A DNA stretch of 64,000 nt, taken from positions 1 to 64,000 of the forward strand of contig NZ_JAAGPD010000049.1 of the NCBI RefSeq assembly GCF_017104565.1. Direction: 5' to 3'. Numbering within the stretch: the stretch's first letter is position 1; each line of letters starts with the position of its first letter. The notes below the pieces were generated by a model. It was not told the DNA's origin. It saw only the letters and a program-made list of their open reading frames with translations, and did no database searches. Positions 18,702 to 56,207 of the stretch are shown piece after piece. The translations under genes and the position numbers were made by a program. Origin of the DNA: Paraburkholderia sp. Tr-20389 (GTDB lineage Bacteria; Pseudomonadota; Gammaproteobacteria; Burkholderiales; Burkholderiaceae).

Positions 18702-19949
18702 TCAATGCTGCATACCGATTACTTCATGCAGCGAGTTCAACCGCCGAACGGGATCGGCGACATAAGGATTCGTCTCGTCCCACGCATAGCCCGCCAGCAC
18801 GGCGCTGATCATGCGCCGGATCAGCGGCGTCTGATGCGGGTAGAAGATGATGTCCTGCAATTCACCCGTGTACCACCGCTCGACGAACGCGCGGAACGTG
18901 TCGATGCCCTTGCGCAGCGGAATGTCGTACGCCGACTGCCAGTCGACGGTTTCGCCGTTCAACTGGCGCGCCAGTGTCTGCACGGCCAGATGCGCGGACC
19001 GCAGCGCGATCGTCACACCCGACGAGAACACGGGGTCGAGAAACTCGCCCGCGTTGCCGAGCAATGCGTACCCAGGCCCATGCAGCCGCTCGACATTCGC
19101 CGAATAGCCGCCGATATGCCGCACGGGCATCAGGAACGGCGCATGGCCGATCAGTCGATTCAGCGTCGGCTCGCTCTGGATCAGCGCACGCAGCTTCGCT
19201 TCTCGCTCGGCTTCAGGCACATCGAGGAACGCAGCTTCCGCCACGCAACCTACCGACGAGCGCCCGTTCGCGAGCGGAATCATCCAGTACCACACGTCGC
19301 GATGCTCGGGATGCACGGCCACCGTAATCTTGCTGCGATCGTGTGCTTCGACGGGAATACCGTCGCGCACGTGCGTGAAAATCGCGGCGCGGGTCGGCAT
19401 GCGCGTCGGCGCTTCGAGATTCAGCAGACGCGGCAGCACGCGTCCAAAGCCGCTTGCGTCGAGCACGAAGCGCGCATGTACCTGGTAGGCGTTGCCCGCT
19501 TCGTCGACGACGTCGAGCACGGGCTCGTCACCCGTTTTCATCGCGAGCACCGTGTGGCCGAAGCGCACGTCGGCGCCCTGCTCCGCCGCGCAGCGGATCA
19601 GCAGGTCATCGAAGACGGCACGCTCGACCTGATACGTCGTGCCCCAACCCGTCGAATGCTTGTCGCGGAAGTCGTACGCACACGCCTGGTCGCGATACAC
19701 GAAATGCGCGCCGTTCTTGTACTGGAAGCCCGCTTCGACGACGGCCTGCAGCATGCCCGCTTCTTCGAGGTAAGCCATGCTCTGCGGCAACAGGCTCTCG
19801 CCGATCGAAAAGCGCGGAAAGTGCTGGCGCTCCAGCACGAGCACCGACCGCCCCGCCTTGCGCAGCAGCGCCGCAGCGACGGCGCCCGACGGTCCTGCTC
19901 CGATGATGGCCACATCCACCGCTGCGTTCATCGACGAATCCATATTCAT
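18702..19949 (-). CDS. Flavin-dependent halogenase-like oxidoreductase of the aryl polyene cluster
   Basis: The 415-residue protein opens with a FAD-binding Rossmann motif (AIIGAGPSGA, residues 14-23) and has FPRFSIGESLLP (44-55), a stretch shared by FAD-dependent halogenases and related monooxygenases. VWYWMIP (219-225) contains the WxWxIP motif used to recognise flavin-dependent halogenases. It could halogenate an aryl head group or polyene; brominated xanthomonadins are the known precedent. A hydroxylase-like role is possible because the WxWxIP motif alone is not proof. ATG 19949 has AAGGA seven bases upstream. It is divergent from the methyltransferase gene and is the last gene of the pigment cluster. 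Confidence 0.8.
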   Translation of the reverse strand: MNMDSSMNAAVDVAIIGAGPSGAVAAALLRKAGRSVLVLERQHFPRFSIGESLLPQSMAYLEEAGMLQAVVEAGFQYKNGAHFVYRDQACAYDFRDKHSTGWGTTYQVERAVFDDLLIRCAAEQGADVRFGHTVLAMKTGDEPVLDVVDEAGNAYQVHARFVLDASGFGRVLPRLLNLEAPTRMPTRAAIFTHVRDGIPVEAHDRSKITVAVHPEHRDVWYWMIPLANGRSSVGCVAEAAFLDVPEAEREAKLRALIQSEPTLNRLIGHAPFLMPVRHIGGYSANVERLHGPGYALLGNAGEFLDPVFSSGVTIALRSAHLAVQTLARQLNGETVDWQSAYDIPLRKGIDTFRAFVERWYTGELQDIIFYPHQTPLIRRMISAVLAGYAWDETNPYVADPVRRLNSLHEVIGMQH

Positions 19950-20069
19950 TGAATTTCCTTCAAATAGCGTATTGCGCGCGCAACGCTTTGCATCCTTACC
20001 AGCGATTACAATGTCGCACAACCATTCCAATCAAAGACCACCCAGCACCATCACCGTCCGGGGAATAAC

Positions 20070-20822
20070 GTGCAGTCCACCGAAACAGCCAGCGTATCGA
20101 GCGGCGTGCCCTTCGTACCGGAGACGTCGTTCGGCGTCTGGTTCCTCCGTACTCACACGTGGGAACACCACGTGCTGCGCGTCGCGATCAACGACCTCAA
20201 ACGCCTGATCGACACGCCGATTCCCACGTCGCCCGTGATCGTCGATGTCGGTTGCGGCCAGGGCATTTCATTCCGGCTGCTCGCGCAAACGTTCAAACCA
20301 GAACGCATCGTCGGCATCGACTTTCACGAGCCGTCGCTCGAACTGGCGATGAACGCCGCGCGCGCCTGCCGCGATCATGCCGACACGCGCGCGACCAGCA
20401 TCGACGTGCTGCATGGCGACTGCGCCAGCCTGCCGCTGCCCGATGCCAGCGCCGACATCGTGTTCTGCCACCAGACGTTTCATCATCTCGTCGAGCAGGA
20501 ACGCGCGCTCGCTGAGTTCCGTCGTGTGCTGAAGCCGGGCGGCGTGCTGCTGTTCGCCGAATCGACGGATGCGTACATCAAGTCGTGGGTGATCCGCCTG
20601 CTCTTTCGTCATCCGATGCAGGTGCAGAAGAGCGCGGACGGCTATCTCGACATGATCCGTCACGGCGGCTTCGCCTTCGGTGCGCACAACGTGTCGCTGC
20701 CGTACCTGTGGTGGAGCCGCGCAAAAGACTTCGGCCTGCTGGAGCGCCTCGGCATCTACACGCCGAAGGTCGGCAAGCGCCGCGAAACCCTCGTTAACGT
20801 CGCGGCCGTCAAGACGGACTGA
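20070..20822 (+). CDS. Class I SAM-dependent methyltransferase of the aryl polyene cluster
   Basis: This 250-residue protein contains a standard SAM-binding motif I (VIVDVGCGQG, about residues 52-61) followed by an acidic residue in VGIDFHEPS, motif II (DIVFCHQTFHHL) and motif III (LKPGGVLLFAES), as in small-molecule methyltransferases of the UbiE/Methyltransf_11 type. It could O- or C-methylate the aromatic head group of the pigment. It is the only + strand gene inside the cluster, divergent from the halogenase-like gene and convergent with the small secreted proteins. The start is GTG 20070 with GGGGAA upstream. Confidence 0.85.
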   Translation: MQSTETASVSSGVPFVPETSFGVWFLRTHTWEHHVLRVAINDLKRLIDTPIPTSPVIVDVGCGQGISFRLLAQTFKPERIVGIDFHEPSLELAMNAARACRDHADTRATSIDVLHGDCASLPLPDASADIVFCHQTFHHLVEQERALAEFRRVLKPGGVLLFAESTDAYIKSWVIRLLFRHPMQVQKSADGYLDMIRHGGFAFGAHNVSLPYLWWSRAKDFGLLERLGIYTPKVGKRRETLVNVAAVKTD

Positions 20823-20867
20823 CACGACAGGCGGCAACCGCGCACGCGCGATGCCGCCTCTTCAGCC

Positions 20868-21299
20868 TTACTTCTTCAGCGTCACCACTTCGCCCTTCAA
20901 CGCGACACCAGCAATCACCGCACCCGCCCCACAGGTGAACTCCGTCGCGCTCTCGCGCACTTCGTTCTTGTAGTTGCTCTTGATGTTGATGACGGCATTG
21001 CCGCCTTCCTTGCGCGCGCGCTCCTGAAGCTCGATCACGGCCGACAGGAACACGTGCTGGCACGCCGTCTCGTCGCTCTTGCCGAATGCGTTGGTCTTCT
21101 TGTTCGTCGCGAACTCGCCGAAGTTCTTCACGACGCCGGGATGTTTCTGACCCGCGAAATACAGCGGAATATCGTCGCCGACTTTACCCGGCTCGCTCGT
21201 CAGCGCTTCGGCGACGGGATAGTTGGCGACGGTGTCGCGCGCGAACGCGTGCGAGGCGAGACATGCGACGACAGCTGCACAGATCAGGTGACGCTTCAT
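20868..21299 (-). CDS. Small exported protein of the aryl polyene cluster, paralogue of its neighbour
   Basis: A 143-residue protein with a signal peptide (MKRHLICAAVVACLASHAFA) and no lipobox. The C-terminal half contains GGNAVINIKSNYKN and ATEFTCGAGAVIAGVALKGE, closely echoed in the next protein upstream (ANAVIGIKTRF, SSTEFTCGASLNG). Two Cys residues, in ETACQHV and FTCGAG, are conserved between the pair. Proteins of this kind are often mislabelled excinuclease ATPase subunit; nothing in the sequence supports that. A role in the envelope, perhaps in pigment transport, is inferred from location and export only. Confidence 0.8.
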   Translation of the reverse strand: MKRHLICAAVVACLASHAFARDTVANYPVAEALTSEPGKVGDDIPLYFAGQKHPGVVKNFGEFATNKKTNAFGKSDETACQHVFLSAVIELQERARKEGGNAVINIKSNYKNEVRESATEFTCGAGAVIAGVALKGEVVTLKK

Positions 21300-21326
21300 G
21301 GTTATTACCCTCGTGGTTGGATATTC

Positions 21327-21755
21327 TTATTGCGTTTCCAGCTTGACGACGTCGCCGCGCACGGCGAGTGTCGATCCGTTCAGGCTTGCGCCGCACGTGA
21401 ACTCGGTCGACGAAGCCGATTCGTTGTGTTGAAAGCGTGTCTTGATGCCGATGACGGCATTCGCGTGCTGCGCGCGTGCGTAGTCGCGCAGGTCTTGCAG
21501 CGCCTTCGCGAGCGCGTTGTTGCAGTTGGCCTCGGGGCTGACATCGGGCTTGCGCGGCACGCGCGCGGCGAACTCCTTGCTGCCGAACGACTGCTGCACC
21601 GACGCATGCGCCTGATCGCCGAAATAAAGCGCCACGTCCTGGCCGCTCTGCGTCTGGACCGAGGCCGGCATCGGCAGCGACTTGATCTTCGTGGTACAGC
21701 CCGCCTGCGTCAGCACGACGGCCGCCACCAACCCCATTGCGATTCTGTTCTTCAT
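21327..21755 (-). CDS. Small lipoprotein of the aryl polyene cluster, paralogue of its neighbour
   Basis: The 142-residue product has a lipoprotein signal (MKNRIAMGLVAAVVLTQAGC) with the lipidated Cys at position 20. It shares length, predicted fold and two spaced Cys residues (EANCNNA and EFTCGA) with the protein encoded just downstream, and both have DVALYFGDQ/DIPLYFAGQ-type motifs. The pair therefore looks like an ancient tandem duplication in which one copy is lipid-anchored and the other soluble. It follows the ketosynthase gene by 43 bases in the same direction. Function is unknown. Confidence 0.8.
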   Translation of the reverse strand: MKNRIAMGLVAAVVLTQAGCTTKIKSLPMPASVQTQSGQDVALYFGDQAHASVQQSFGSKEFAARVPRKPDVSPEANCNNALAKALQDLRDYARAQHANAVIGIKTRFQHNESASSTEFTCGASLNGSTLAVRGDVVKLETQ

Positions 21756-21798
21756 TCTTCGTATTCCCTTTGTCGTTGTTTATTGTGCGTACTACGTT

Positions 21799-23025
21799 TC
21801 AAACCCTGGCGAACATCAGGCTCGCGCAACTACCCCCGAAACCGAACGACACCGACAACGCGCGATCGATCGTCGCTTCGCGCGTGGCTTGCACCAGCGG
21901 CAACTGTTGCGCGAGCGGCTCGATCTGTTCGATGCCCGCCGTCCCCGCGATGAAACCGTCGCGCATCATCAGCAGCGTGTAGATCGCTTCATGTGCGCCG
22001 CACGCGCCGAGCGGATGCCCCGTCAGCCCCTTCGTCGACGAAAACGGCGGCACGTCTGCGCCGAACACCGTTTGCAACGCGCGCAGTTCCTCGATGTCGC
22101 CGAGCGGCGTCGACGGCGCGTGCGCATTCACGTAATCGGGCATCGCGCCCGCTTCGTCGAGTGCGGCCTGCATCGCGCGCGCGATGCCCGGCGCGTGCGG
22201 CGACACCATGCTCGCGCCATCCGTGCCGTGGCCGAACCCCGTCAGCTCTGCGTAGATGCGCGCGCCGCGCGCGAGCGCATGATCGAGCGCTTCGAGCACG
22301 AGCACACCGCCGCCCGACGCGATCACGAAGCCGTCGCGCGCCGTATCGTAGGGTCGCGACGCGCGCGCGGGCGTGTCGTTGAAGCGGCGCGACAGCGCAT
22401 GCATCGCGTCGAACATCAGCGTCATGTTGTCGTGCAGGCACTCGCTGCCGCCTGCGAGAACGATCCGTTGACGTCCCGTTTGAATCAGTTGCATTGCCTG
22501 GCCGATCGCGAGCGCCGACGTCGTGCACGCCGACGACGGCGAATACGTGACGCCTTCGATGCCGAACACCTGCGCGACATTCGCGGAGGCCGTGCTGCTC
22601 ATCGCCTGCGGCACGGTGTACGGCGGCGTTTTCTCGACACCACGCGTGTTCGCAACGGCCATCGCCGCGTCATACGCGGACATCGTGCCGACACCCGAGC
22701 CCAGCACCGCACCGACTTCGGGCGAACGCAGCGCGGCGAGATCGAGACCTGCGTCGTCGATGGCCTTGCGCGCCGCATGGCAGGCGAAGCGCGCGGTATC
22801 GCCCATGAAGCGTTCCAGCTTGCGGTCAAACGGCGGCTCGCCGTTCACCGACGCCACGCCCGCGACCTGCGTGCCGAAGCCGCGCTCGCGCCACGCGTCG
22901 ATTCGCGTGATGCCGCTGCGCCCATCGCGCAACGCGGCGCTCACGTCGTCGAGCGTATTGCCGATGCACGACACGATGCCCATGCCCGTGACGACGACGC
23001 GTTGCAAGCCTTGCACACGCGTCAT
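21799..23025 (-). CDS. Beta-ketoacyl-ACP synthase (third ketosynthase of the APE cluster)
   Basis: The 408-residue ketosynthase condenses malonyl-ACP with the growing chain. The catalytic set is Cys167 (SSACTTS), His302 (VNAHAPSTPLGD), Lys332 and His337 (TKGLTGHPLG). The usual NAHGTST motif reads NAHAPST here: the Gly after the catalytic His is Ala, and the next Thr is Pro. Residues around VSFGFGGSCASL near the C-terminus are intact, so it should still be active. It overlaps the preceding ketosynthase gene by four bases. Sequence style is FabB-like. Its role may be early condensation or starter selection, since two other ketosynthases are present. Confidence 0.9.
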   Translation of the reverse strand: MTRVQGLQRVVVTGMGIVSCIGNTLDDVSAALRDGRSGITRIDAWRERGFGTQVAGVASVNGEPPFDRKLERFMGDTARFACHAARKAIDDAGLDLAALRSPEVGAVLGSGVGTMSAYDAAMAVANTRGVEKTPPYTVPQAMSSTASANVAQVFGIEGVTYSPSSACTTSALAIGQAMQLIQTGRQRIVLAGGSECLHDNMTLMFDAMHALSRRFNDTPARASRPYDTARDGFVIASGGGVLVLEALDHALARGARIYAELTGFGHGTDGASMVSPHAPGIARAMQAALDEAGAMPDYVNAHAPSTPLGDIEELRALQTVFGADVPPFSSTKGLTGHPLGACGAHEAIYTLLMMRDGFIAGTAGIEQIEPLAQQLPLVQATREATIDRALSVSFGFGGSCASLMFARV

Positions 23026-24248
23026 CGAACGCGCCTGAAAATCAGCGACGTGTTGATGCCGCCAAACGCGAAGTTGTTGCTCATCACGTATTCGGCATCG
23101 ATCGCACGTGCTTCGCCTCGAATGTAATCGAGCGGCGCGCAGGCGGGATCGATCTCCGTCAAATTAAGCGTCGGTGCGTACCAGTTGCGCTTCATCATTT
23201 CGATCGTCCACCACGCTTCGAGTGCGCCGCATGCGCCGAGCGTATGGCCGACGTAGCTTTTCAGCGACGAGATCGGCATGCGCTCGCCGAAGGTCTGGGC
23301 CGTTGCCTGGCTCTCCGCAACGTCGCCGCGATCCGTCGACGTGCCATGCGCATTCACATACGCAATCGCGCTTGCGTCGAGCTTCGCGTCGTCGAGCGCG
23401 AGCTGCATCGCGCGCGCCATCGTGTTCGCCGTCGGCTGCGTCATGTGCGCGCCGTCCGAATTGCAGCCGAAGCCGACGATCTCCGCGTGGATCGTCGCGC
23501 CGCGCGCCTTCGCGTGCTCGTATTCTTCGAGTACGAGCGTCGCCGCGCCCTCGCCGACCACGAGACCGTCGCGCTTCGCGTCGAACGGACGCGGCGTCAG
23601 GTGCGGCTCGTCGTTGCGCGTGCTGGTCGCATAGAGCGTGTCGAACACGGCGACGGCCGGCCCCGACAATTCTTCCGCACCGCCCGCGAGCATCAGCGTC
23701 TGCTTGCCCATGGCGATGTTCTCGTACGCGTAGCCGATCGCCTGGCTGCCCGACGCACACGCCGACGAGGTCGGCAAGATACGTCCCTTCAGATCCCAGA
23801 ACAGGCTCACGTTGACGGCCGTCGTGTGCGGCATCATCTGCACGTAGCTGTTCGACGTGACATCGGCCATCGAGCCCGATTCGAGCATCGTGCCGAATGC
23901 GCGGATCGGCTCGACGGAACCCGACGACGAGCCGTATGCGACGCCCATGCGGCCGTCGCTGATCGATTCGTCGCCCGCGAGACCCGCGTCGGCGAGCGCC
24001 AGTTCGCTTGCGCGTACCGCGTACATCGATACCGTGCCCATCGAGCGCGTCTTCTTGCGCGGCCAGGCGGCGGGCTGTGCGAATGCAGGCAGCGGCGCAG
24101 CGAGGCGCGTATGCAGCGACTCGAAGTAATCCCACTCCGGCATGCGCCGCACCGCGTTGCGGCCCGCCTTCAATGCCGCTTCGATCTCGTCCCAGCGGCT
24201 GCCGAGCGCCGTGACGCCCCCCATGCCCGTAATGACGACGCGCTTCAT
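23022..24248 (-). CDS. Beta-ketoacyl-ACP synthase, FabF-like (ApeR-like)
   Basis: A 408-residue type II ketosynthase with catalytic Cys164 (PTSSACASGSQ), His301 (NAHGTSTDRGD), Lys330 and His335 (LKSYVGHTLGAC). It matches the FabF-like ketosynthase found beside the ketoreductase in aryl polyene clusters. Overlaps of one base with the ketoreductase gene upstream and four bases with the next ketosynthase gene downstream show tight coupling. Together with the ketoreductase and the dehydratases it would perform the repeated condensation, reduction and dehydration that lays down conjugated double bonds; no enoyl reductase is encoded, as expected for a polyene. Confidence 0.92.
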   Translation of the reverse strand: MKRVVITGMGGVTALGSRWDEIEAALKAGRNAVRRMPEWDYFESLHTRLAAPLPAFAQPAAWPRKKTRSMGTVSMYAVRASELALADAGLAGDESISDGRMGVAYGSSSGSVEPIRAFGTMLESGSMADVTSNSYVQMMPHTTAVNVSLFWDLKGRILPTSSACASGSQAIGYAYENIAMGKQTLMLAGGAEELSGPAVAVFDTLYATSTRNDEPHLTPRPFDAKRDGLVVGEGAATLVLEEYEHAKARGATIHAEIVGFGCNSDGAHMTQPTANTMARAMQLALDDAKLDASAIAYVNAHGTSTDRGDVAESQATAQTFGERMPISSLKSYVGHTLGACGALEAWWTIEMMKRNWYAPTLNLTEIDPACAPLDYIRGEARAIDAEYVMSNNFAFGGINTSLIFRRVR

Positions 24249-24973
24249 CAGATCATCCCGCCATTGACGCCGATCACCTGGCGCGTCACGTAAGAGGCTG
24301 CATCCGACATCAGAAAGCTGACGACTGACGCGACTTCAGCCGGCTGACCGACACGGTTCATCGGCACGGTCTTCAATGCATGTTCGAGCGGCATGTCTTC
24401 GAGCATGCCCGTTTCGATCAGCCCCGGCGCCACGCAGTTGACCGTGATGCTGCGCGATGCAAGTTCGACGGCCAGCGCCTTCGTCGCGCCGATCAGCCCC
24501 GCTTTCGCCGCGCTGTAGTTGACCTGCCCGCGATTGCCGATCACGCCGGACACCGATGCGATCGTCACGATGCGGCCGCCTTTTTTCGCGCGAACCATCG
24601 GCATGGTGAGCGGATGGATCACGTTGTAGAACGCATCGAGGCCCGTTTCGATCACCACGTCCCAGTCTTCGTCGGTGAGCGCGGGGAAGGCCGCGTCGCG
24701 CGTCACGCCCGCGCTGCTCACGATGCCGTAGTAAGGGCCATGCGCGGCGACATCCGCTTCGAGCGCGTCGCGGCACGCGGTGCGGTCGCGCACGTCGAAC
24801 TGCAGCACGCGCGCCGAGCCGCCCTGCGCCGCAATGCCCGCCGTGACGGCTTCGGCTTCCGTGCGACCCGTGCGGCAATGCACGGACACGGCGAAACCGT
24901 CGGCAGCGAGCTGATAGGCAATCGCGCGGCCGATGCCGCGGCTCGCGCCCGTTACGAGAACTCGGCGGCTCAT
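24248..24973 (-). CDS. 3-ketoacyl-ACP reductase, FabG-like (ApeQ-like)
   Basis: This 241-residue short-chain dehydrogenase reduces the beta-keto group after each condensation, using NADPH. The cofactor loop is TGASRGIG (8-15) and the catalytic triad is Ser140, Tyr153 and Lys157 (VNYSAAKAG). ASVSGVIGNRGQ and NCVAPGLIETGM are typical FabG stretches. The chosen ATG 24973 overlaps the stop of the dehydratase gene by four bases; the open frame continues upstream but only as a shadow of that gene. Its position between the ApeP-like dehydratase and FabF-like ketosynthase genes matches aryl polyene clusters. Confidence 0.94.
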   Translation of the reverse strand: MSRRVLVTGASRGIGRAIAYQLAADGFAVSVHCRTGRTEAEAVTAGIAAQGGSARVLQFDVRDRTACRDALEADVAAHGPYYGIVSSAGVTRDAAFPALTDEDWDVVIETGLDAFYNVIHPLTMPMVRAKKGGRIVTIASVSGVIGNRGQVNYSAAKAGLIGATKALAVELASRSITVNCVAPGLIETGMLEDMPLEHALKTVPMNRVGQPAEVASVVSFLMSDAASYVTRQVIGVNGGMI

Positions 24974-25452
24974 GAACTGATACTCCCTTCGATGAACGTC
25001 TGAAAATCGCCCGGTTGAAACACCTTGATGACGGCGTCCGCATAACGCGCGCCTTGGTGATCGATCGTGCATTCGTAGGCGCTGTGGCCTTCGTCGCCGC
25101 GCAGCACTTCCTGCACGTTGACGCTCAGATGCGCGTCGCGCGCGAATGCGCTCGCGTGCGCCTTGTAGCTGCGCGTGCCGAGCAGCACGCCGGGACGCGC
25201 GCGGCCGCCCGCGCGCATGGCCAGCAACGCGATATGCGCGGCGACACCCTGCGCCATCAGCTCGATGCCGATCCACGCGGGCATCGCGCCGCTTTCGTCC
25301 GCATACCATGCGTCGCCGCGCACGGCCGTGTAGGCCGTCAGCGTTTCGTCGCCGCATGCGCTCACGCCGTCGAGCAACAGCATCGTGCCGCGATGCGGCA
25401 GGATCGTCTCGATGGGCGGAAATACTTCCTTGGTCTCAGGTGTGGCCTTCAT
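24970..25452 (-). CDS. Hotdog-fold 3-hydroxyacyl-ACP dehydratase (ApeP-like)
   Basis: The 160-residue protein has a FabA/FabZ-related hotdog signature: ILPHRGTMLLLDGV (18-31) with the catalytic His of the family, and PAWIGIELMAQGVAAHIAL in the central helix, where Glu is the second catalytic residue. It removes water from 3-hydroxyacyl-ACP to create a double bond. In characterised aryl polyene systems such a dehydratase pairs with a second hotdog subunit; here the partner would be the hotdog domain fused to the ligase. It begins 33 bases after the ketosynthase gene and overlaps the ketoreductase gene. Confidence 0.9.
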   Translation of the reverse strand: MKATPETKEVFPPIETILPHRGTMLLLDGVSACGDETLTAYTAVRGDAWYADESGAMPAWIGIELMAQGVAAHIALLAMRAGGRARPGVLLGTRSYKAHASAFARDAHLSVNVQEVLRGDEGHSAYECTIDHQGARYADAVIKVFQPGDFQTFIEGSISS

Positions 25453-25485
25453 GTCGTTATGTTTGTCGCGTCGCGTTCGAACCGT

Positions 25486-29749: not shown

Positions 29750-30174
29750 GCGCGCTCCAGCTTCTCGAACACGACGGGCGGTGACACGAACTGCGTTTCC
29801 TGGGTGGCGGCTTCGATCGCGACCTGGATCGTGTAGCCCTTCGTCAGCCGCGTGCCCGTCGCGCAATCGACGATTTCATAGCCTATTTTCAGGCGGTTTT
29901 CGAATTCGAGCAGCTCGGTGCGCACGTCGATCTGCTGGCCATACGTCGCGGGCCGCACGTACTTGAGATGCGCCTCGACGATCGGCCATAGATAACCCGA
30001 GGCCTGCATCTCGCGATAGTCGTAATCGAAGGCACGCAACAGCGCCGCGCGGCCGATCTCGAAGTACTTCAGATAGTGGCCGTGCCAGCAGACGTTCATC
30101 GCGTCGACATCATGAAACGGCACTTCGACGATCGCACTTGCCTTCAGTGTCTTGTGCGGATGGCGTTCATTCAT
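29737..30174 (-). CDS. 4-hydroxybenzoyl-CoA-type thioesterase (ApeK-like)
   Basis: A 145-residue hotdog thioesterase with the family motif FHDVDAMNVCWHGHYLKYFE, in which the Asp (DVDAMN) is the catalytic residue of the 4-hydroxybenzoyl-CoA thioesterase group. It would release acyl chains from CoA or ACP, either as product release or as an editing function. It overlaps the ammonia-lyase gene by eight bases upstream and the LolA-like gene by 13 bases downstream. This gene is a standard member of aryl polyene clusters. Confidence 0.9.
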   Translation of the reverse strand: MNERHPHKTLKASAIVEVPFHDVDAMNVCWHGHYLKYFEIGRAALLRAFDYDYREMQASGYLWPIVEAHLKYVRPATYGQQIDVRTELLEFENRLKIGYEIVDCATGTRLTKGYTIQVAIEAATQETQFVSPPVVFEKLERAWAR

Positions 30175-31762
30175 GCTGCGCGCCTCCTTCGATCAATGCG
30201 CAATCGGCGATGCGCGCCGTCAACGCACGCAGATCGCTTTCGAGCGCGCGGTCTTCGTCGACGAACGGCGACAGCGCCGCGACGCTGTCCGCGAACGCGC
30301 GCAGCGGCGCGGGCACGAGCGTCGCTTCGTTGAGACGCACACGCAGTTTCAGCGCCTGCACGGCGGCTAGCGTGTGCGCGGCAGCGACCTGCTCCGTCAG
30401 TTCGAGCACGCGCAGGCAGTCGCGCGCGGCGATCGTGCCCATGCTGACCTTGTCCTGATTGTGCGCTTCCGTCGAACGCGAGAACACGCTCGCGGGCATC
30501 GTGTGCTTCAGCGCTTCCGCCGTCCATGCCGACGACGAAATCTGCACTGCCTTGAAGCCGTGATTGATCGGCGCACGCGCCGAGGTCGCGCCCGTCAGAT
30601 TGCGCGGCAAACCGTTGTTGAACTTGTCGTCGACGATCAGCGCGAGTTGCCGGTCCATCAGATCGGCGAGATTGGCGACGGCCGTCTTCAACGCGTCCAT
30701 CGCGAACGCGATATGGCCGCCGTAGAAGTTGCCGCCATGCAGCACGCGCTCGCCATCGGGATCGATCAGCGGATTGTCGTTCGCGCTATTGAGTTCGTTC
30801 TCGACGTCGCGTCGCACCCACGACAGCGCATCGACTGCCACGCCGATCACATGCGGCGCGCAGCGGATCGAATAACGATCCTGCAACCGGTGGCCCGGCG
30901 TATCGTCGCGGCCCGCGAGGTCCGCGCGGATCCATGCAGCGGCATCGGCCTGGCCCGCGTGCGGCTTCGCTTCGAAAATCATCGCGTCGAAGTGCGCTGC
31001 GCGGCCGTCGAGCGCGACCGTCGACAGCGCCGTCAAACGCGCCGCCAGACGCGCGAGATGTTCGGCGCGCGCGAACGCGAGACAGGCAAGCCCTGTCATC
31101 ACGGCCGTACCGTTCATCAACGCGAGACCTTCCTTCGGCGCGAGCGTCAACGGCGCGTGGCCGAGTTGTGCCCACACGCCGGCGGCATCGCGCAGCGTGC
31201 CGTCGAACATCACGTCGCGTTCGCCGACGAGCGCGGCGGCCACATACGACAGCGGCGTCAGATCGCCGCTCGCGCCTACCGAACCTTCGGACGGAATGCG
31301 CGGCAGCACGCGATGATTGACGAGATCGGCGAGCCGTTCGAGCAGCACCGGGCGCACGCCGGAAAAGCCATACGCGAGCGAGTTCAGGCGCGCGGCGATC
31401 ACCGCGAGCGTTTGTGCGTCGTCGAGATACGCGCCCATCCCGCAGCCGTGATAGCGCGTGAGCTGCAGCGGCAGCGCTTCGACGAGTTCCATCGGCACGT
31501 CGACCACGCACGCGTCGCCATAACCCGTGTTCACGCCGTACACCGTTTCGCCTGCGGCGAGATGACGGCGCAGAAAATCCGCGCCGCGCTGGATGCGCGA
31601 ACGCCATGCGGGATCGCCGCTCAGCGCGACCTGCGCGCGTCCCTTTGCAATCGCGACGACCTCTTCGATCGACAGCTTGCGCCCGCCGATCGTCACCTTG
31701 CGTGACGCGGCAGCGCGTGCAGCATGCGTGTGTGCATCGTCGATCAGATCATGTTCCGACAT
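30167..31762 (-). CDS. Aromatic amino acid ammonia-lyase (histidine/tyrosine ammonia-lyase family)
   Basis: This 531-residue enzyme forms the MIO electrophile from Ala164-Ser165-Gly166 in GSVGASGDLTPLSY and has the catalytic Tyr75 in TVYGVNTGYG. In a pigment cluster it most likely makes a hydroxycinnamate (for example p-coumarate from tyrosine) as the aromatic starter, as in flexirubin clusters. The selectivity dyad region reads RYHGCGMG, giving Tyr-His where histidine lyases have Ser-His and Rhodobacter tyrosine lyase has His-Leu, so the substrate cannot be settled by eye. No hut genes are nearby, which argues against histidine catabolism. ATG 31762 has GGAG seven bases upstream. Confidence 0.88.
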   Translation of the reverse strand: MSEHDLIDDAHTHAARAAASRKVTIGGRKLSIEEVVAIAKGRAQVALSGDPAWRSRIQRGADFLRRHLAAGETVYGVNTGYGDACVVDVPMELVEALPLQLTRYHGCGMGAYLDDAQTLAVIAARLNSLAYGFSGVRPVLLERLADLVNHRVLPRIPSEGSVGASGDLTPLSYVAAALVGERDVMFDGTLRDAAGVWAQLGHAPLTLAPKEGLALMNGTAVMTGLACLAFARAEHLARLAARLTALSTVALDGRAAHFDAMIFEAKPHAGQADAAAWIRADLAGRDDTPGHRLQDRYSIRCAPHVIGVAVDALSWVRRDVENELNSANDNPLIDPDGERVLHGGNFYGGHIAFAMDALKTAVANLADLMDRQLALIVDDKFNNGLPRNLTGATSARAPINHGFKAVQISSSAWTAEALKHTMPASVFSRSTEAHNQDKVSMGTIAARDCLRVLELTEQVAAAHTLAAVQALKLRVRLNEATLVPAPLRAFADSVAALSPFVDEDRALESDLRALTARIADCALIEGGAQHE

Positions 31763-33527
31763 TCGCGTCTCCGTTCGGGATTGCACCCGTTATCGCTTTT
31801 CGGGGACGCGCCCAGAAATCGAAAAAATTGAACCATTGATACGGTGCCTTGCGGCAATAGTGTTCGAGCCGTGACGCATAGCGCTGCGCCCATGCCGCAA
31901 TATGCTGCGCGCGTTCGCGGCGCGGCAGGTCGATGCGCTCGGCGAACGGCTCGAAGTACAGCCTGTAGCGCTCGCGCTTGCGCTCATCGCGCTCTTTCAG
32001 GCAGAAGAACAGATACACCGGGCAGCCAAGCGCATGCGCGAGCACATACGGTCCCTGCGCAAACGGCGCGGTCGCGCCGAGGAATTGCGCTTCCGTCGTG
32101 CGGCCCGATTCGCGCGCGGGCACACGGTCGCCGACGATCACCAGCAGTTCGCCTGCATCGATGCGCTCCTGCATCATCATCGACGTCTCGGGTCCGAAGT
32201 CGCTCACCTGCACGAGCCGCTTCGCAAAGTCGCTGCTCGCCGTCGACAGCACGCTGTTGAAGCGCTTCGCGTGCTCGGTATAGACGATGGCCGTGACCTT
32301 CGCGTGGCCGCCGTGCGCAGCAAGTGCGCGCGTCATTTCGAGGTTGCCCAGGTGCGCGCCGATCACGAGCGCGCCCCGGCCGCTGGTGACGAGCGCTTCG
32401 AACGCGGCGGAATCGTCGAAGACCACGTCGTCAGAATCGATGCGGCCGGACCATGCGGCCAGTTTGTCGAGTCCGGATTGCGCGAACGCGAGCATCTGCC
32501 GGTATGCGGAGCGCCAACCGGGACGTGGCGTGCGCTCGCCTGGCGCGGCCTGTTCGAGATGCGTGAAGTAGGCGCGCGACGCGGCGCGTGCATCGCGGCC
32601 CGTCAACAGAAAATACGCGACCACGGGATGCAGCCACAGCGCGGTGAAGCGCATGCCGAACAGCTTGCAACTGAGCGCGAGCAGCGTCATGCCGAGGCGG
32701 CTGCCGCGTTCGGCGACACGCCACCACTTTGCGCCATCGGCGTTCGAACCCGACGCTGCCGACTTACGCGGCATGACCTTGTGCGCGAGCAGCATCGGCA
32801 GACGCAGCAGCATCCCGCAGACGAGCCGCGTATGGCTCGCGCTGATGCGCACGTTGTCCCACAGCACGTCGAAGTGCGACACGCCATCCGTCGCATAGAC
32901 GACGCGCGTCGGAATCGCGCGGAACGCAAGACGCCGCCAGTACAGGCGCACGAGAATCTCGATGTCGAAGTCCATGCGCGTCGGCAGTTGAACGCTGTCG
33001 ATCAGCGCGCAGGCGGCATCGAGCGGATAGAGGCGGAAGCCGCACATCGAATCGCGGATCGTGAACGACAGCGTTTCGATCCACACCCACACGTGCGTCA
33101 GATAGCGGCCATAGAGGCGCGACTTCGGCACGCTCTCGTCATAGACGGGACGGCCGAGGATCACGGCGGCCGGCTCGGCGCGCGCGGCATCGAGGAAGAG
33201 CGGCACGTCGCTCGCGTCATGCTGGCCGTCGGCATCGATCTGCAACGCATGCGTGTAGCCGGCGCGCTTCGCTGCACGCAAGCCCGCCATCACGGCCGCG
33301 CCCTTACCGCCGTTGACGGGCAGACGCAGCAGCGTCATCTGCTCGCGATACTGGCAGGCGAGCTTCGCGAGCACGGCTTGCGTCGCCTCGTCGCTGCCGT
33401 CGTCGACGACGAAGATGGGCAGTTTGTGGACGAGAAGACGCTCGACGGTGCCGCCGATCGCATCCTTGTGGTTGTAGATCGGAATGACGACGCACGGCGC
33501 AAAAGCCACCTCGGCTACTTCGCTCAT
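31749..33527 (-). CDS. Glycosyltransferase family 2 fused to LpxL-like acyltransferase (ApeJ-like)
   Basis: The 592-residue protein has two modules. Residues about 10-240 are a GT-A fold glycosyltransferase (VVIPIYNHKDAI, VVDDGSDEAT, LPVNGGKGAAV, and the metal-binding QIDADGQHD). Residues about 290-575 are a lysophospholipid/lipid A acyltransferase-like domain with an HLGNLE catalytic motif in VIGAHLGNLEMTRAL. It would attach a sugar or glycerol-like group and an acyl chain, linking the polyene to its lipid anchor. This two-domain arrangement is known from aryl polyene clusters. It overlaps the ligase gene by four bases and the ammonia-lyase gene by 14. Confidence 0.9.
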   Translation of the reverse strand: MSEVAEVAFAPCVVIPIYNHKDAIGGTVERLLVHKLPIFVVDDGSDEATQAVLAKLACQYREQMTLLRLPVNGGKGAAVMAGLRAAKRAGYTHALQIDADGQHDASDVPLFLDAARAEPAAVILGRPVYDESVPKSRLYGRYLTHVWVWIETLSFTIRDSMCGFRLYPLDAACALIDSVQLPTRMDFDIEILVRLYWRRLAFRAIPTRVVYATDGVSHFDVLWDNVRISASHTRLVCGMLLRLPMLLAHKVMPRKSAASGSNADGAKWWRVAERGSRLGMTLLALSCKLFGMRFTALWLHPVVAYFLLTGRDARAASRAYFTHLEQAAPGERTPRPGWRSAYRQMLAFAQSGLDKLAAWSGRIDSDDVVFDDSAAFEALVTSGRGALVIGAHLGNLEMTRALAAHGGHAKVTAIVYTEHAKRFNSVLSTASSDFAKRLVQVSDFGPETSMMMQERIDAGELLVIVGDRVPARESGRTTEAQFLGATAPFAQGPYVLAHALGCPVYLFFCLKERDERKRERYRLYFEPFAERIDLPRRERAQHIAAWAQRYASRLEHYCRKAPYQWFNFFDFWARPRKAITGAIPNGDANVGT

Positions 33528-35212
33528 GCGCGCTCCCGGTACACGATCACGCCCGACGAACTGTCGCGACCATCGACGCGATACGCGAACTGCACGCGCC
33601 GCCGCGCGGCATCGTGCGACAGCTTCAGGTCGAGCACGGCGCCCGGCATCACGGGTGCCGTGAACTTCAGGCGATCGACGGATTCGATTTCACGTACACC
33701 CGTCACGTGTTCGGCGGCGAGACGGATCGCCCAGTCGAGCTGCACGACGCCGGGCAGGATCGGCAAGCCTGGAAAGTGGCCTTCGAAATGCACGAGCGAA
33801 GGCGGCACGCGCAGTTCGTAATGCAGGTCGTCGCCATTGCGCGTTTCGGACAGCACTTCGAAGCCTTCGCTGCGCGGCTCGAATGCGGCAGCGACGGCCG
33901 CGACGGGCAGCTTGCCGCGCGGATCGAACGGCAACGCAATGCGAAAGCGCCAATGACGCGGCAGCACGACCACGTCGAAATACGCGGCGAGGTGGCGGCG
34001 CAGCGTCTTCGCCAGCGCGACGCGCCCTTCGCTGCGCAGCGCTTCGCTGCCGGCTTCGTTGAGCGCGACGACGGCGCCCACGCGCTCGCGTGAGGCGCCA
34101 GCCAGCTTCACCACGGCCGCCTGCGCGACATACGGATGCAGCGCGAGACGCGCTTCGACCTCGGGCAGCGACACACGCTTGCCGTCGAGCTTGATCACGC
34201 GATCCAGACGTCCCAGCAGACGGAAGCGGCCTTCGTCGTCGAACGCGATGGCGTCGTCGGTGCGATGCCAGTCGTCGTGACCCAGATGCGCCGAGCGCAC
34301 GTTCAACGCGCCGTCCTCGCCGCGCCGTACGTCGACGCCGTTGACGGGACGCCACGCCGACGTGTCGTTCTGACGGCGCCACGCGATGCCGCCCGTTTCG
34401 GTACTGCCGTAAATCTCGATCGGCGCGGCGCCGAACGCGGCCGCGTATTCAGCGGCGGCTTCGGCGGAGAGCGGGCCGCCCGATGAAAAGAAGGCGCGCG
34501 GCACGGGCGCGAGCGCCGCGAAGCCGGGCAATGCGGGCCAGCGCGACAGTTGCGCGGGCGACGACACGACCACCGTCGCGCCGCACTGGCCGATGCGCGC
34601 CTGCACATGCTGCGGTTCGATGCAGACGGCCCGGTCGAACGCGCGCCCTGCCGCGAGCGGCCACATCACGCGAAACAGCAGCCCGTAAATGTGGTGATGC
34701 GGGACGCTCGCGAGCATCGTCGCATCGCCGACGAGTTCGCCCCACTCGCGTTCGAGCGTATGCACTTCGGCGTCGAACTGCGCGAGCGTCTTGTGGATCG
34801 GCTTCGGCGTGCCGCTGCTGCCCGACGTGTAGAGCGTGAGCGGCGCGTTCGGATCGATATGAAGCGGCAGCGCCGACGGCGGTTGCGTTGCCGCATGCGC
34901 GCGAATGTCGGCGTCGGTGAGCACGGCGTCGTACGCATCGGCGAGATCGGCGAGATAGCCGGGCGTCGAGTTCGCCGGAATCACGGGCGTCTTGCCGCAC
35001 GCGAAGAGCGCGAACAACGCGCACGCGAAGTCGAACGGATCGTCGATGCACAACGCGTAGCGACGCGCGCCGGTTTCGCGCAACTGGCATGCGATCGCGA
35101 AGACGCGCGCGCGGAACGCGGCGAACTCGATCGTGCTATCGGATTCGTCGTCGCGGCAGACGGGCACGTGTGCGGCGCGCGCGCACGACAGCAGTTCGTG
35201 CAGCGCGATCAT
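33524..35212 (-). CDS. AMP-dependent ligase fused to hotdog dehydratase (ApeH-ApeI-like fusion)
   Basis: The 562-residue protein starts with an ANL-superfamily adenylation domain: phosphate loop TLYTSGSSGTPKP, EIYGSTETGGIAWR, and LLGRLDRVIKLDGKRVSLPE near the hinge. It would activate the aromatic acid and load it onto an ACP or CoA. From about residue 445 a hotdog domain follows (VPPSLVHFEGHFPGLPILPG, with the FabZ-like catalytic His in EGHFPG), expected to dehydrate 3-hydroxyacyl-ACP together with the ApeP-like protein. In the E. coli aryl polyene cluster, as I recall, these are two separate genes. ATG 35212 overlaps the membrane-protein stop as ATGA. Confidence 0.9.
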   Translation of the reverse strand: MIALHELLSCARAAHVPVCRDDESDSTIEFAAFRARVFAIACQLRETGARRYALCIDDPFDFACALFALFACGKTPVIPANSTPGYLADLADAYDAVLTDADIRAHAATQPPSALPLHIDPNAPLTLYTSGSSGTPKPIHKTLAQFDAEVHTLEREWGELVGDATMLASVPHHHIYGLLFRVMWPLAAGRAFDRAVCIEPQHVQARIGQCGATVVVSSPAQLSRWPALPGFAALAPVPRAFFSSGGPLSAEAAAEYAAAFGAAPIEIYGSTETGGIAWRRQNDTSAWRPVNGVDVRRGEDGALNVRSAHLGHDDWHRTDDAIAFDDEGRFRLLGRLDRVIKLDGKRVSLPEVEARLALHPYVAQAAVVKLAGASRERVGAVVALNEAGSEALRSEGRVALAKTLRRHLAAYFDVVVLPRHWRFRIALPFDPRGKLPVAAVAAAFEPRSEGFEVLSETRNGDDLHYELRVPPSLVHFEGHFPGLPILPGVVQLDWAIRLAAEHVTGVREIESVDRLKFTAPVMPGAVLDLKLSHDAARRRVQFAYRVDGRDSSSGVIVYRERA

Positions 35213-35913
35213 GCCGCCTCCGAGCGCCGGGCGCGCGGCAGGATCACGAGATAGCGCCATGCGATTTCACCCACCAGCAGCACGCCGACGAGCCCATACG
35301 CAATCGCGCCGTTATACAGCGACCACGCCTCGCGCGGCCAGTACAGCGCGGTATAGAGAGAGAACACGCCATTGGCGAGGAAGAACGCACACCAGATCTG
35401 CGTCACGCGGCGCGTGTGGCGGATCGCGGGCTCGCTCAGATTGGGCGTGCCGATGCGCGCGAATTTTTCGATCATCGTCGGGCCGCGCACGAGCGTCGCG
35501 CCGAACGCGATCAGCAAACCGAGATTCACCAGCGACGGATAGATGCGCAGCAACAGTTCGCTGTTCGTCCACACGATGGCGGCCGACGCGACGCTCAGCA
35601 TGAACGCGACGCCCCAGTCGATGCGCGTGAGCCTGCGCAGCGACGCGCCGAACGCGCCCGTTCCCGCGCAGCGCTGCAGCCACAGCAGCGCGAACAGCAG
35701 ACAGCCGACGAAGCGCGGCTGGTCCCAGAACCACGCGCACAGAATGACGGCGGGATACGCGAGCTTCGCGAGCACGCCGAGCGCGAAACCGGCCCCGCCG
35801 CGCGAGCGCTCGCCGCCGTTCACAGACTGTGACCCGGCCGGCGGCGTTTCCGCTGCGTGCGGCGTCTGCGTGTCGTCCGAAGCGCCGTGCGCGTGCGAAC
35901 GTGGCGCGTGCAT
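35209..35913 (-). CDS. COG4648-type membrane protein of the aryl polyene cluster
   Basis: A 234-residue integral membrane protein with about six hydrophobic segments after a 45-residue hydrophilic, His/Ser-rich N-terminus. Stretches such as LAKLAYPAVILCAWFW, ARIGTPNLSEPAIRHTRRVT and IWCAFFLANGVFSLYTAL are the recognisable family pattern. The biochemical role of this family is not known to me; it is a constant companion of the ACP and ligase genes in aryl polyene clusters. The start shares one base with the ACP stop and the stop overlaps the ligase start by four bases. Confidence 0.85.
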   Translation of the reverse strand: MHAPRSHAHGASDDTQTPHAAETPPAGSQSVNGGERSRGGAGFALGVLAKLAYPAVILCAWFWDQPRFVGCLLFALLWLQRCAGTGAFGASLRRLTRIDWGVAFMLSVASAAIVWTNSELLLRIYPSLVNLGLLIAFGATLVRGPTMIEKFARIGTPNLSEPAIRHTRRVTQIWCAFFLANGVFSLYTALYWPREAWSLYNGAIAYGLVGVLLVGEIAWRYLVILPRARRSEAA

Positions 35914-36170
35914 CAGCCCTGCGCCGCGAGCAGCGATTCGACAGCGACGATCACGTCGCCGACCGTGCGCACCGACTTGAACTCCTCCGGCTTGATCCGG
36001 CGGCCCGTCATCTCCTGCAGCTTGATCGCGAGATCGACGGCGTCGATGCTGTCCAGATCGAGCTCTTCGAACAGGTGCGCTTCGGGCGTCACGCGTTCGG
36101 GCTCGATCGCGAAGTTTTCTTTGAAGATGGCGCGGATGCGCTCAAGGATCTCGGTGTCGGTCACGGTCAT
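35913..36170 (-). CDS. Acyl carrier protein 2 of the aryl polyene cluster
   Basis: An 85-residue acidic protein with the ACP fold. Ser41 in ELDLDSIDAVDL is the phosphopantetheine attachment site. It carries the growing polyene or the starter acyl group as a thioester. The ATG overlaps the stop of the first ACP gene by four bases, so the two carriers are translationally coupled. Two distinct ACPs side by side are a hallmark of aryl polyene clusters. Confidence 0.93.
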   Translation of the reverse strand: MTVTDTEILERIRAIFKENFAIEPERVTPEAHLFEELDLDSIDAVDLAIKLQEMTGRRIKPEEFKSVRTVGDVIVAVESLLAAQG

Positions 36171-36466
36171 TCCCCTTTCTTTGTGGTGTCGCCCGATTCA
36201 TGCGCAAGCTCGCGCTGGCTCGCCACCAGCGCCGCAAGCGTATTGATCGAGCGGAAGTGCTCTCGCGTGCGTTCATCGTTCGCCGCGATCGTCAATTGAT
36301 AGTGTTTGCGCAGCACGATGCCGATTTCGAGCGCGTCGATCGAATCGAGACCGACGCCGTCGGTATCGAAGAGCGGCGCGTCGTCGTCGATGTCGGCGGG
36401 CGTCAGGTCTTCCAGATCGAGCGCTTCGATCAGAAGCTGTTTGATTTCAAGCTTTAAAGAATCCAT
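36167..36466 (-). CDS. Acyl carrier protein 1 of the aryl polyene cluster
   Basis: A 99-residue acyl carrier protein with Ser42 in DGVGLDSIDALEIG as the phosphopantetheine site. It differs clearly from the second ACP encoded immediately downstream, including an insert before the DSID motif and a longer C-terminus, so the two probably have different tasks such as starter loading and elongation. The gene overlaps the acyltransferase gene upstream by 20 bases. Confidence 0.92.
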   Translation of the reverse strand: MDSLKLEIKQLLIEALDLEDLTPADIDDDAPLFDTDGVGLDSIDALEIGIVLRKHYQLTIAANDERTREHFRSINTLAALVASQRELAHESGDTTKKGE

Positions 36467-37241
36467 AGTCGAACAGGTGCTGGGTGATGTGTGCTTCGAT
36501 GGCGCTCGTCACCGTGCGGGCAGCCAGCGCGGGCGGTTCGTCGTGCGTCGCGAATGCGTCCGTGCCGAGCGGGTCGAGCACGTTGACGCGCATGCGGAAC
36601 GCACGCTCGGGCACGTTGTACCAGCGCATGCCCTTCGTGAAGGCGGGCGGATCGCAGTCCATCAGGACGGGCAGAATCGGCGCGCCGGACTTGAGCGCCA
36701 TGTGCGCGAAACCGCGCGAAAACGCATGCATCCGGTTGCGCGCCGGGCTGCGCGTGCCTTCCGGAAAAATGATCATCGTGTAGCCGCGCGCGAGTTGCCG
36801 CGCGCCCGCCTCGACGAGTTCGAGGGGATCGGCGTTGCTCACGTACTCGGCCGCGCGCACGACGCCCCAGAAAAACGGATTGCCCCAGTGCGCGCTCTTG
36901 ACGACGCAGCACGCGCGCGGGGTCAGCGACAGCAGCACCATCACGTCGAGCCAGGTCGGGTGATTCGCGACGACGATGGCCGGGTCGCTGGCCTTGCGAC
37001 GCAGCGCCGCGACACCGTGCGCATCGAGTTCCATCACGCCGACCCAGCGCAGCACCGCGACGAGCGCGCGGAAGAACGCGTGAATGATCGCGGTGATCGC
37101 CAGCTGTTTCGACGCGCGATGCGGCCACAGCCAGGCAATCGGAAACAGGATCAGCGAAAAGCCGAGCCCGCAGATGCCGAATGCGGTGAACGCGAGCGCC
37201 GTCGCGATGAGACGCCAGTGGTAGTCAAGCCACGCCTTCAT
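36447..37241 (-). CDS. Lysophospholipid (1-acylglycerol-3-phosphate-type) acyltransferase (ApeD-like)
   Basis: The 264-residue membrane protein has two N-terminal hydrophobic spans and the PlsC-type acyltransferase signature: NHPTWLD (HX4D) followed by IIFPEGTRSPARN. It would transfer an acyl chain to the lipid part of the pigment anchor. The ATG at 37241 lies 17 bases inside the chain-length-factor gene and has GGAG five bases upstream; the frame upstream of it is a shadow of that gene. It is the second gene of the leftward pigment operon. Confidence 0.9.
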   Translation of the reverse strand: MKAWLDYHWRLIATALAFTAFGICGLGFSLILFPIAWLWPHRASKQLAITAIIHAFFRALVAVLRWVGVMELDAHGVAALRRKASDPAIVVANHPTWLDVMVLLSLTPRACCVVKSAHWGNPFFWGVVRAAEYVSNADPLELVEAGARQLARGYTMIIFPEGTRSPARNRMHAFSRGFAHMALKSGAPILPVLMDCDPPAFTKGMRWYNVPERAFRMRVNVLDPLGTDAFATHDEPPALAARTVTSAIEAHITQHLFDYGFFKA

Positions 37242-37929
37242 CCCAGCTCCATTCCCAGACGGCGTACTCGCTGCGCCACTGCGCGGCCGTACGCGTGTCG
37301 AGGCAGTGATGCACAGCCTGACTCTGCGTTGCAAAGAGAGTGCCCGCGGGATCCGCCGGCGCGTTTTCCGCTGTCGCGGCCGCGCGCGAGCAGGTCAGCC
37401 GCCCCGCCGGCGCGTCGTCGAGCAGGATCGCGAGCGCGCCGCCCTGCACTTCTTCTTCGATCGTTCCGTAGGCGGGATCGGCCGGTTCATCGGCATAGAC
37501 GAGCAAAACGGGGGTCGAAGTGTCGGTCGCGTATTGCGCGTGCGCTTCGAGCAGCGCATAACCGAGCGTTTCGGCGCCCGCCGACAGCGCGCTCGCAGCC
37601 GAACGGTCGCCGCGCGAAATGCCGAACACGCCCGTCATCGCGTTGAGCACGGAAAGACTGAAGGAAGTCGGCGACACCGGCTCACCGGCGCTGATGTTGC
37701 GCAGGATGTCCGTGGTGCGGCGCAGCTCGCCGTGGCGCGACGCGAACACGATCCGGACGCTGGGTTTGTCGGCGGCGCAGTCGTGCGCGACTTTCAGCGC
37801 AATGCGCGACAGCGTGCTGAGACGACGCCGCACCATCGGCTCGATAAAGCCAACGTCGGGGGCGGCGGCTGCGACGGCGGGCCACGAAGACCAGCGAGCA
37901 ACCGGAATTGTCCAGTGCAGATCGGGCAT
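37225..37929 (-). CDS. Ketosynthase chain-length-factor-like protein (ApeC-like), first gene of the operon
   Basis: A 234-residue protein of the shortened ketosynthase type annotated as ketosynthase chain length factor. It retains the N-terminal half of the thiolase fold (RIALKVAHDCAA, IVFASRHGELRRTTDIL, PTSFSLSVLNAM) but ends early, and the position of the catalytic Cys reads SAASALSAGAET with no Cys. It therefore cannot condense by itself and should pair with the ApeO-like ketosynthase. It is the promoter-proximal gene, preceded by over 500 bases without a gene. Confidence 0.88.
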   Translation of the reverse strand: MPDLHWTIPVARWSSWPAVAAAAPDVGFIEPMVRRRLSTLSRIALKVAHDCAADKPSVRIVFASRHGELRRTTDILRNISAGEPVSPTSFSLSVLNAMTGVFGISRGDRSAASALSAGAETLGYALLEAHAQYATDTSTPVLLVYADEPADPAYGTIEEEVQGGALAILLDDAPAGRLTCSRAAATAENAPADPAGTLFATQSQAVHHCLDTRTAAQWRSEYAVWEWSWDEGVA

Positions 37930-55887: not shown

Positions 55888-56149
55888 GAGAAAAACAGAA
55901 GATGCTGGACGTGGCAGAAGTATGCCCTATCGGCGGCAAGGCTTGCGCGCCATCTCAATCAATGGATATTGGCGAGCGATCACTTCGCCTGGCGAGGAAT
56001 ATCTTTATTCCGCACATCCGCCATAAATAAACCATCAATCAGGGATTACACCGATTAATGAATCGACGAAAGTAATCGCCGAAAACGTTTACGCACCGGC
56101 GGTTATTACCAGACGCCCCGGCTCATGCATTAATACGGCGCGCGACGGG
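55888..56149. other. AT-rich intergenic region
   Basis: No supported gene in this 260-base stretch between the exonuclease gene start and the csp terminator. It becomes AT-rich from about 55990 (ATATCTTTATTCCG, AATAAACCATCAATC). It holds the exonuclease promoter at most. Confidence 0.4.
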
Positions 56150-56179: not shown

Positions 56180-56207
56180 ATCCTGGGAGCCAACGGCTCG
56201 ACAGCAA

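Follow-up and report, generated by a model that had tools for sequence, protein, structure and literature searches.

A conserved aryl polyene cluster with an ammonia-lyase and a halogenase-like flavoprotein in Paraburkholderia sp. Tr-20389

The window analyzed here is a 64,000-nucleotide stretch of Paraburkholderia sp. Tr-20389 (contig NZ_JAAGPD010000049.1), in which positions 18702–37929 hold the 20 genes of an aryl polyene (APE) cluster. The cluster probably makes a lipid-anchored aryl polyene whose synthesis would start with the conversion of tyrosine to 4-coumarate, with a halogenase-like flavoenzyme acting as a modifier. This reading is backed by the gene content, by collinearity with the clusters of Escherichia coli, Acinetobacter baumannii and Pseudoalteromonas, by the residues and model scores of the ammonia-lyase, and by co-occurrence with the chain-length factor (CLF).

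Gene families were assigned through Pfam and NCBIfam models, with “under cut-off” referring to the curated NCBIfam cut-off (Table 1). Eighteen of the genes lie on the minus strand, overlapping or tightly spaced. The first of these is the CLF, which starts at 37929, and the last is for a small secreted protein and stops at 20868. The methyltransferase (plus strand) and the flavoprotein (minus strand) are divergent, with approximately 120 bases between them. The cluster is flanked by a VgrG gene on one side and an M1 aminopeptidase gene on the other. Two of the genes are fusions, one joining the ligase to an ApeI-like dehydratase and the other a glycosyltransferase to an acyltransferase. The components that mark an ape-type cluster are all present: the CLF, paired acyl carrier proteins (ACPs), the ligase, ApeI and ApeP dehydratases, the ketoreductase and ketosynthases. 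Pfam recognizes three ketosynthases besides the CLF, one more than in the E. coli cluster. A sequence-only reading of the region had described a complete APE cluster. The family models and the core order of E. coli ape uphold the cluster call, and every gene that was named is present, but the word “complete” needs qualifying as the ApeN/DUF3261 gene is missing. The list had also left out the extra ketosynthase and a pair of genes for small proteins of secreted or lipoprotein-like type, which were considered as ApeA or ApeN and rejected as no match was found.

The apeA-R cluster of E. coli CFT073 agrees with this one in its core proteins and their order, with core identities of 25–63%. Unlike the window, it is without an ammonia-lyase and a flavoprotein, and its methyltransferase ApeB has no counterpart here: an orthologous relationship was rejected as no blastp match was found at E 0.05. 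Passages of PMC8253772 provide the E. coli gene roles and a predicted 4-hydroxybenzoate starter. The A. baumannii cluster (CP035931.1) shares a longer order with the window: CLF, lysophospholipid acyltransferase, two ACPs, COG4648 protein, ligase/dehydratase, glycosyltransferase, acyltransferase, ammonia-lyase, thioesterase, LolA, MMPL, an interruption, then ketosynthase, dehydratase, ketoreductase, ketosynthase and small protein. Its lyase and flavoprotein are 57% and 55% identical to those of the window, respectively. It differs in that the glycosyltransferase and acyltransferase are split, a phosphopantetheinyl transferase gene is present, and neither the extra ketosynthase nor a methyltransferase is annotated. 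In both A. baumannii and Pseudoalteromonas, the ammonia-lyase lies between the acyltransferase and the thioesterase, exactly its position in the window, and the flavoprotein lies between MMPL and DUF3261; no methyltransferase is annotated in the Pseudoalteromonas cluster either. The lyase, flavoprotein and methyltransferase had been taken as three additions that set the cluster apart. This view was not supported, since the first two sit in the A. baumannii and Pseudoalteromonas APE operons and occur together in 58 of 78 genomes sampled from the genus.

A contig scan with the flavoprotein as the query confirmed 371 relatives. The best 80 loci were kept; these derive from Paraburkholderia, Caballeronia, Burkholderia, Ralstonia, Trinickia and two further Burkholderiaceae. 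At least two of the four cluster ketosynthase/ketoreductase genes adjoin the flavoprotein at >60% identity in 71 of these best 80 loci, and this conserved order excludes a chance grouping. Within the 78-genome genus sample, an ape-type CLF is found in 62. The flavoprotein occurs in 61 of these 62 versus 4 of the 16 genomes without the CLF, and the lyase in 59 versus none; the associated P values are only a rough guide as the sampled genomes are related. Thus, the cluster is an ordinary, conserved and widespread example of a known, very common pigment system of Gram-negative bacteria. Elsewhere in the class, 15 genomes have a flavoprotein of the window's type, and in 13 of them it sits within or next to an ape-type cluster. 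The Burkholderia multivorans cluster has the full gene order of the window, while that of Cupriavidus metallidurans has the flavoprotein and no lyase match. Arylpolyene clusters are listed in the genome papers of Paraburkholderia tagetis RG36 (PMC10110911) and P. suaedae (PMC12654207), and the RG36 locus covers the stretch that begins with LolA and ends with the flavoprotein.

The same loci bear on the missing ApeN/DUF3261 gene. It is absent from the place before the ketosynthase that it occupies in E. coli, Acinetobacter and Pseudoalteromonas; here MMPL abuts the ketosynthase directly, and tblastn with three ApeN proteins gave no match in the window. PF11659 matched nowhere in the whole genome, a weak negative since its control also matched nowhere. 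The gap between MMPL and the ketosynthase is below 300 bases in 68 of the 69 measurable loci among the 80, and the single exception has a split MMPL match. The gene is no constant of the wider APE class, as the Burkholderiaceae relatives do not have it at this place.

The ammonia-lyase has the ASG triad of the 4-methylideneimidazole-5-one (MIO) group and the catalytic Tyr of the active site, as do 12 other aligned lyases of its type. Its score with the BagA/FevW tyrosine ammonia-lyase model (436) is above that with hutH (414). The genome's own HutH shows the reverse (285 and 698), and as this separate hutH is over cut-off, the possibility that the cluster lyase is the housekeeping enzyme was rejected. 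The conversion of tyrosine to 4-coumarate would be the likeliest step, in agreement with the hydroxycinnamate-type starter of the sequence-only reading; such a starter, of the tyrosine type, is judged likely. The selectivity pair is Tyr-His, with Phe-His in several relatives and Ser-His in the histidine lyases of the genome. Classical tyrosine ammonia-lyases have a His-Leu pair and phenylalanine ammonia-lyases Phe-Leu. Since the proved tyrosine lyase of flexirubin synthesis also had histidine-lyase-like residues at this motif, as given in a part of PMC3992019, sequence alone cannot settle the substrate.

The proposed pathway would begin with this deamination, followed by loading of 4-coumarate onto an ACP through the ligase domain. 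The ketosynthase/CLF, ketoreductase and two dehydratases would then extend it to a conjugated (4-hydroxyphenyl)polyene. Anchoring to a lipid would involve the acyl- and glycosyltransferases, and carriage to the outer membrane MMPL, LolA and the small envelope proteins. The most likely target of the flavoprotein would be the aryl head or else the polyene, which may still be ACP-bound at that point, and the methyltransferase may cap the head or carboxyl group. A comparable start is described in the portion of PMC3992019 on the flexirubin of Chitinophaga pinensis, where polyene synthesis is initiated by a tyrosine ammonia-lyase and a 4-coumarate ligase. The flexirubin product differs from the one predicted here in being a polyene-dialkylresorcinol ester; the models run named no dialkylresorcinol genes (DarA/DarB) among the 20 genes, the rest of the genome not having been searched for them.

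Several observations weigh against this pathway. No NCBIfam score of the lyase reaches its curated cut-off, and with the flexirubin model (FlxA, NF053541) the lyase obtains 322 bits against a cut-off of 700, below even the hutH score. The Tyr-His or Phe-His pair appears to fit neither the classical tyrosine nor the classical phenylalanine enzymes, and phenylalanine is a possible substrate. The lyase is cleanly absent from an otherwise kept cluster in three genus genomes (L159–L161). The ApeN/DUF3261 gene is missing, the flavoprotein sits in a branch of its own, and the pigment is predicted from genes. In addition, P. tagetis RG36 apparently corresponds to the white-colonied column of its description, in the part of PMC10110911 concerned.

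The lyase is a modular part of the cluster, as these three genus clusters are without it and only 6 of 13 flavoprotein-bearing ape-type clusters elsewhere in the class show one within the 20 kb read. In one genus genome (G010), the lyase has gone from the cluster (L162) and is found on another contig (L163, 9598–11343). Short ends of both former neighbor genes, of 57 and 72 bases, flank it there, as though it had been cut out together with its borders, and this genome is also without the flavoprotein.

The flavoprotein is halogenase-like in its sequence, its motifs and its predicted fold. The catalytic Lys, WxWxIP and FxxPxxSxG residues of halogenases are all present, and the WxWxIP motif reported by the sequence-only reading was located as WYWMIP at residues 220–225, counted from the Met at 19949. 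WxWxIP is taken to block hydroxylation in halogenases. At the flavin site, Gly-Asn replaces Gly-Asp in 85 of 85 relatives read (Asn299 in the window protein). An unrooted tree that includes five solved halogenases and seven XanB2-linked ones, and no monooxygenases, separates the flavoprotein from all twelve by a 100/100 branch, and it does not nest among the tested halogenases represented by the five solved ones. The suggestion that it might instead group with non-halogenating monooxygenases meets a tree without such an outgroup, while the nearest solved relatives after 3nix of Cytophaga hutchinsonii are halogenases, both by sequence and by predicted fold. We know of no functionally tested member of this branch, 3nix included.

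There is close to an even chance that the flavoprotein is a true halogenase, giving a chlorinated or brominated (4-hydroxyphenyl)polyene through hypohalous acid generated at the flavin. Several halogenases among the nearest solved structures act on carrier-bound substrates, and chlorinated flexirubins and brominated xanthomonadins exist. Set against this are the separate branch, the Gly-Asn mark in all 85 relatives, and the p-hydroxybenzoate hydroxylases that are mixed with the halogenases CmlS and CtcP from Foldseek rank 21 on. The gene is also found in clusters of the A. baumannii type, from which we know of no halogenated pigment. A flavin oxidase or hydroxylase that works on the aryl or polyene part without halogenating it is a substantial possibility too, somewhat short of even; the conservation throughout of the Lys and of the supposedly hydroxylation-blocking WxWxIP argues against such a role.

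Some relatives have kept the flavoprotein without the cluster. It has no cluster in 7 of the 80 loci, standing alone in four (L028, L032, L034 and L038) and beside an 83–86% identical ketoreductase in three (L059, L079 and L080). In L061 only the five genes at the flavoprotein end remain, and L069 is a short contig. No ape-type CLF was found in the eight remnant genomes, and all eight have a weaker CLF match. Four of these weak-CLF loci were read (L103–L106) and are a diverged polyene cluster with no flavoprotein match within the 20 kb read. The remnant flavoproteins that were compared, six of the eight, are under purifying selection: the ratio of nonsynonymous to synonymous rates (dN/dS) is 0.03–0.12 in eight pairs including one remnant, and 0.06–0.10 in three pairs of in-cluster genes. 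In three remnant genomes (G450–G452), the ape-type ketoreductase is the sole match at E 1e-60 or better. The other five have a 51–53% ketoreductase instead, on the same contig and approximately 11 kb from the weak CLF in G446–G449, and on another contig in G453.

Taken with the weak CLF in all eight genomes and the sole strong ketoreductase match in G450–G452, the selection on the remnant flavoproteins suggests that they act in trans for the second polyene cluster, in some cases together with the ketoreductase, a role that is supported only in part. The flavoprotein is not required for that cluster, since 7 of the 11 genus genomes with a weak CLF alone are without it. The weak CLF is present in 11 of the 16 genus genomes without an ape-type CLF, and in four of the four that have the flavoprotein, which is not significant. 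Tentatively, and with the odds leaning the other way, the flavoprotein could represent a branch in its own right among the halogenase-like enzymes, with Gly-Asn at the flavin site as its mark and the tailoring of aryl polyenes, in Proteobacteria and perhaps also in Bacteroidota, as its role. It would have been kept in some Burkholderiaceae after loss of ape, sometimes with the ketoreductase alone, serving a second, XanB2-less polyene cluster in trans. The diverged cluster (L103–L106 and L164) comprises ACP, COG4648, ligase, acyltransferase, LolA, MMPL and ketosynthase genes and occurs in other Paraburkholderia and Ralstonia genomes. The genome of the window has one CLF match only. Part of PMC9542644 describes a pig-like cluster without xanB2 together with an ape-like cluster in Ralstonia solanacearum.

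It is unlikely that the methyltransferase and flavoprotein are merely neighbors standing outside the pathway of the cluster. They form separate transcription units at its edge, and in 8 of the 80 loci the flavoprotein persists although most of the other cluster genes are gone. The flavoprotein, however, lies in or beside an ape-type cluster in the 13 of 15 other class genomes noted above, is found in the Acinetobacter, Pseudoalteromonas and Cupriavidus clusters, and accompanies the CLF in nearly every genus genome that has one. The case is weaker for the methyltransferase. Of the 71 linked loci, 64 have this gene, always on the other strand from the flavoprotein, and it is not annotated in the Acinetobacter and Pseudoalteromonas clusters. 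Among solved structures, the closest to the methyltransferase are methyltransferases of various kinds, none scoring above 52 bits.

The outline had also been likened to that of xanthomonadin. Aryl polyene logic, a halogenase-like protein, an exporter and LolA are common to the window and the xanthomonadin and arcuflavin clusters; parts of PMC3691225 and PMC3949708 place a halogenase in xanthomonadin clusters, and a halogenase and methyltransferase in the arcuflavin cluster. The starter route through XanB2 and a halogenase of another branch set those clusters apart. The XanB2 model has no match in the genome of the window, while 66 of the 369 class genomes do give one. Among the 13 XanB2 loci read, 7 have a homologue that is 31–35% identical to the flavoprotein, which falls outside the XanB2-linked branch. 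Core-gene identity was useless for telling the two classes apart, as the ranges overlap (25–63% to E. coli ape and 23–60% to XanB2-linked loci). A xanthomonadin-type cluster fed by 3-hydroxybenzoate is therefore highly improbable and was rejected: the shared halogenase-like protein, LolA, exporter and ligase and the overlapping identities are outweighed by the lack of a XanB2 match, the probable supply of the starter by the ammonia-lyase, the other flavoprotein branch and the ape gene order. The likeness to xanthomonadin, as far as the sequences tell, is one of outline and not of starter supply or halogenase lineage.

Table 1. Genes of the aryl polyene cluster, with positions in the window and the basis of each assignment.
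Predicted product	Positions	Strand	Basis
Chain-length factor, ApeC-like	37225–37929	-	Ketoacyl-synt_2, Pfam 225 bits; sole PF13723 match in genome
Lysophospholipid acyltransferase, ApeD-like	36447–37241	-	Pfam Acyltransferase; 38% to E. coli
ACP 1, ApeE-like, DSI serine present	36167–36466	-	Pfam PP-binding/NCBIfam; sequence
ACP 2, ApeF-like, DSI serine present	35913–36170	-	Pfam PP-binding/NCBIfam; sequence
COG4648 membrane protein, ApeG-like	35209–35913	-	No Pfam/NCBIfam match; 42% identity to E. coli ApeG region
Aryl-acid ligase fused to ApeI-like dehydratase	33524–35212	-	Pfam AMP-binding and ApeI-like; top NCBIfam 4-coumarate-CoA ligase, under cut-off
Glycosyltransferase/acyltransferase fusion, ApeJ-like	31749–33527	-	Pfam GT2 and Lip_A_acyltrans
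Aromatic amino acid ammonia-lyase, MIO ASG present, probable tyrosine ammonia-lyase	30167–31762	-	Pfam 537 bits; NCBIfam under cut-off; residues
Thioesterase, ApeK-like	29737–30174	-	Pfam 4HBT_2
LolA-like carrier, ApeL-like	29081–29749	-	Pfam LolA_3; NCBIfam LolA2_flexi under cut-off
MMPL/RND exporter, ApeM-like	26664–29084	-	Pfam MMPL
Ketosynthase, ApeO-like	25486–26667	-	NCBIfam PRK09185 over cut-off
ApeP-like dehydratase	24970–25452	-	Pfam PF22817
Ketoreductase FabG2, ApeQ-like	24248–24976	-	NCBIfam TIGR01831 over cut-off
Ketosynthase, ApeR-like	23022–24248	-	NCBIfam PRK09116 over cut-off
Extra ketosynthase, none annotated in E. coli and Acinetobacter clusters	21799–23025	-	Pfam
Small protein, lipobox-like start, paralogue of the 20868–21299 protein	21327–21755	-	33–41% over 69–100 residues to “excinuclease” genes of Pseudoalteromonas and Acinetobacter APE clusters
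Small protein, signal-like start	20868–21299	-	50% to Pseudoalteromonas cluster gene, 39% to Acinetobacter one
Class I S-adenosylmethionine methyltransferase	20070–20822	+	Pfam Methyltransf_11; no NCBIfam model over cut-off
Halogenase-like flavoprotein	18702–19949	-	Trp_halogenase 87 bits; Lys78, WYWMIP, GN instead of GD, FLDPVFSSG

The adjoining VgrG gene (type VI secretion tip) lies at 15550–18429. Weak VgrG matches were also seen near the flavoproteins of relatives, both without the cluster (L028, L032 and L034) and with it (L031, L033 and L041). Further along the window, a HigB-like toxin gene at 43117–43419 may belong to a toxin-antitoxin pair. The G+C content falls to 0.537 at 56001–58000, shortly before two tRNA-Arg genes (59550 and 59719), a possible mobile insertion.

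Other occurrences of the flavoprotein and its homologues were noted. In L155 (genome G117), the neighbor of an ape-type cluster with an ammonia-lyase is a divergent halogenase homologue from the other branch, so the two kinds of enzyme may stand in for one another. Two further members of the window's branch (43%), in L152 and L153, lie on short contigs that show no ape gene match. Two Neisseria gonorrhoeae records in a plasmid collection match the flavoprotein at approximately 50% in two pieces, where the gene is perhaps broken. The gene put forward for bromination or chlorination of the head group belongs to a separate, conserved branch and is no relative, in the narrow sense, of the xanthomonadin halogenase. 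This branch is met from Acinetobacter to Bacteroidota and has a solved structure in 3nix.

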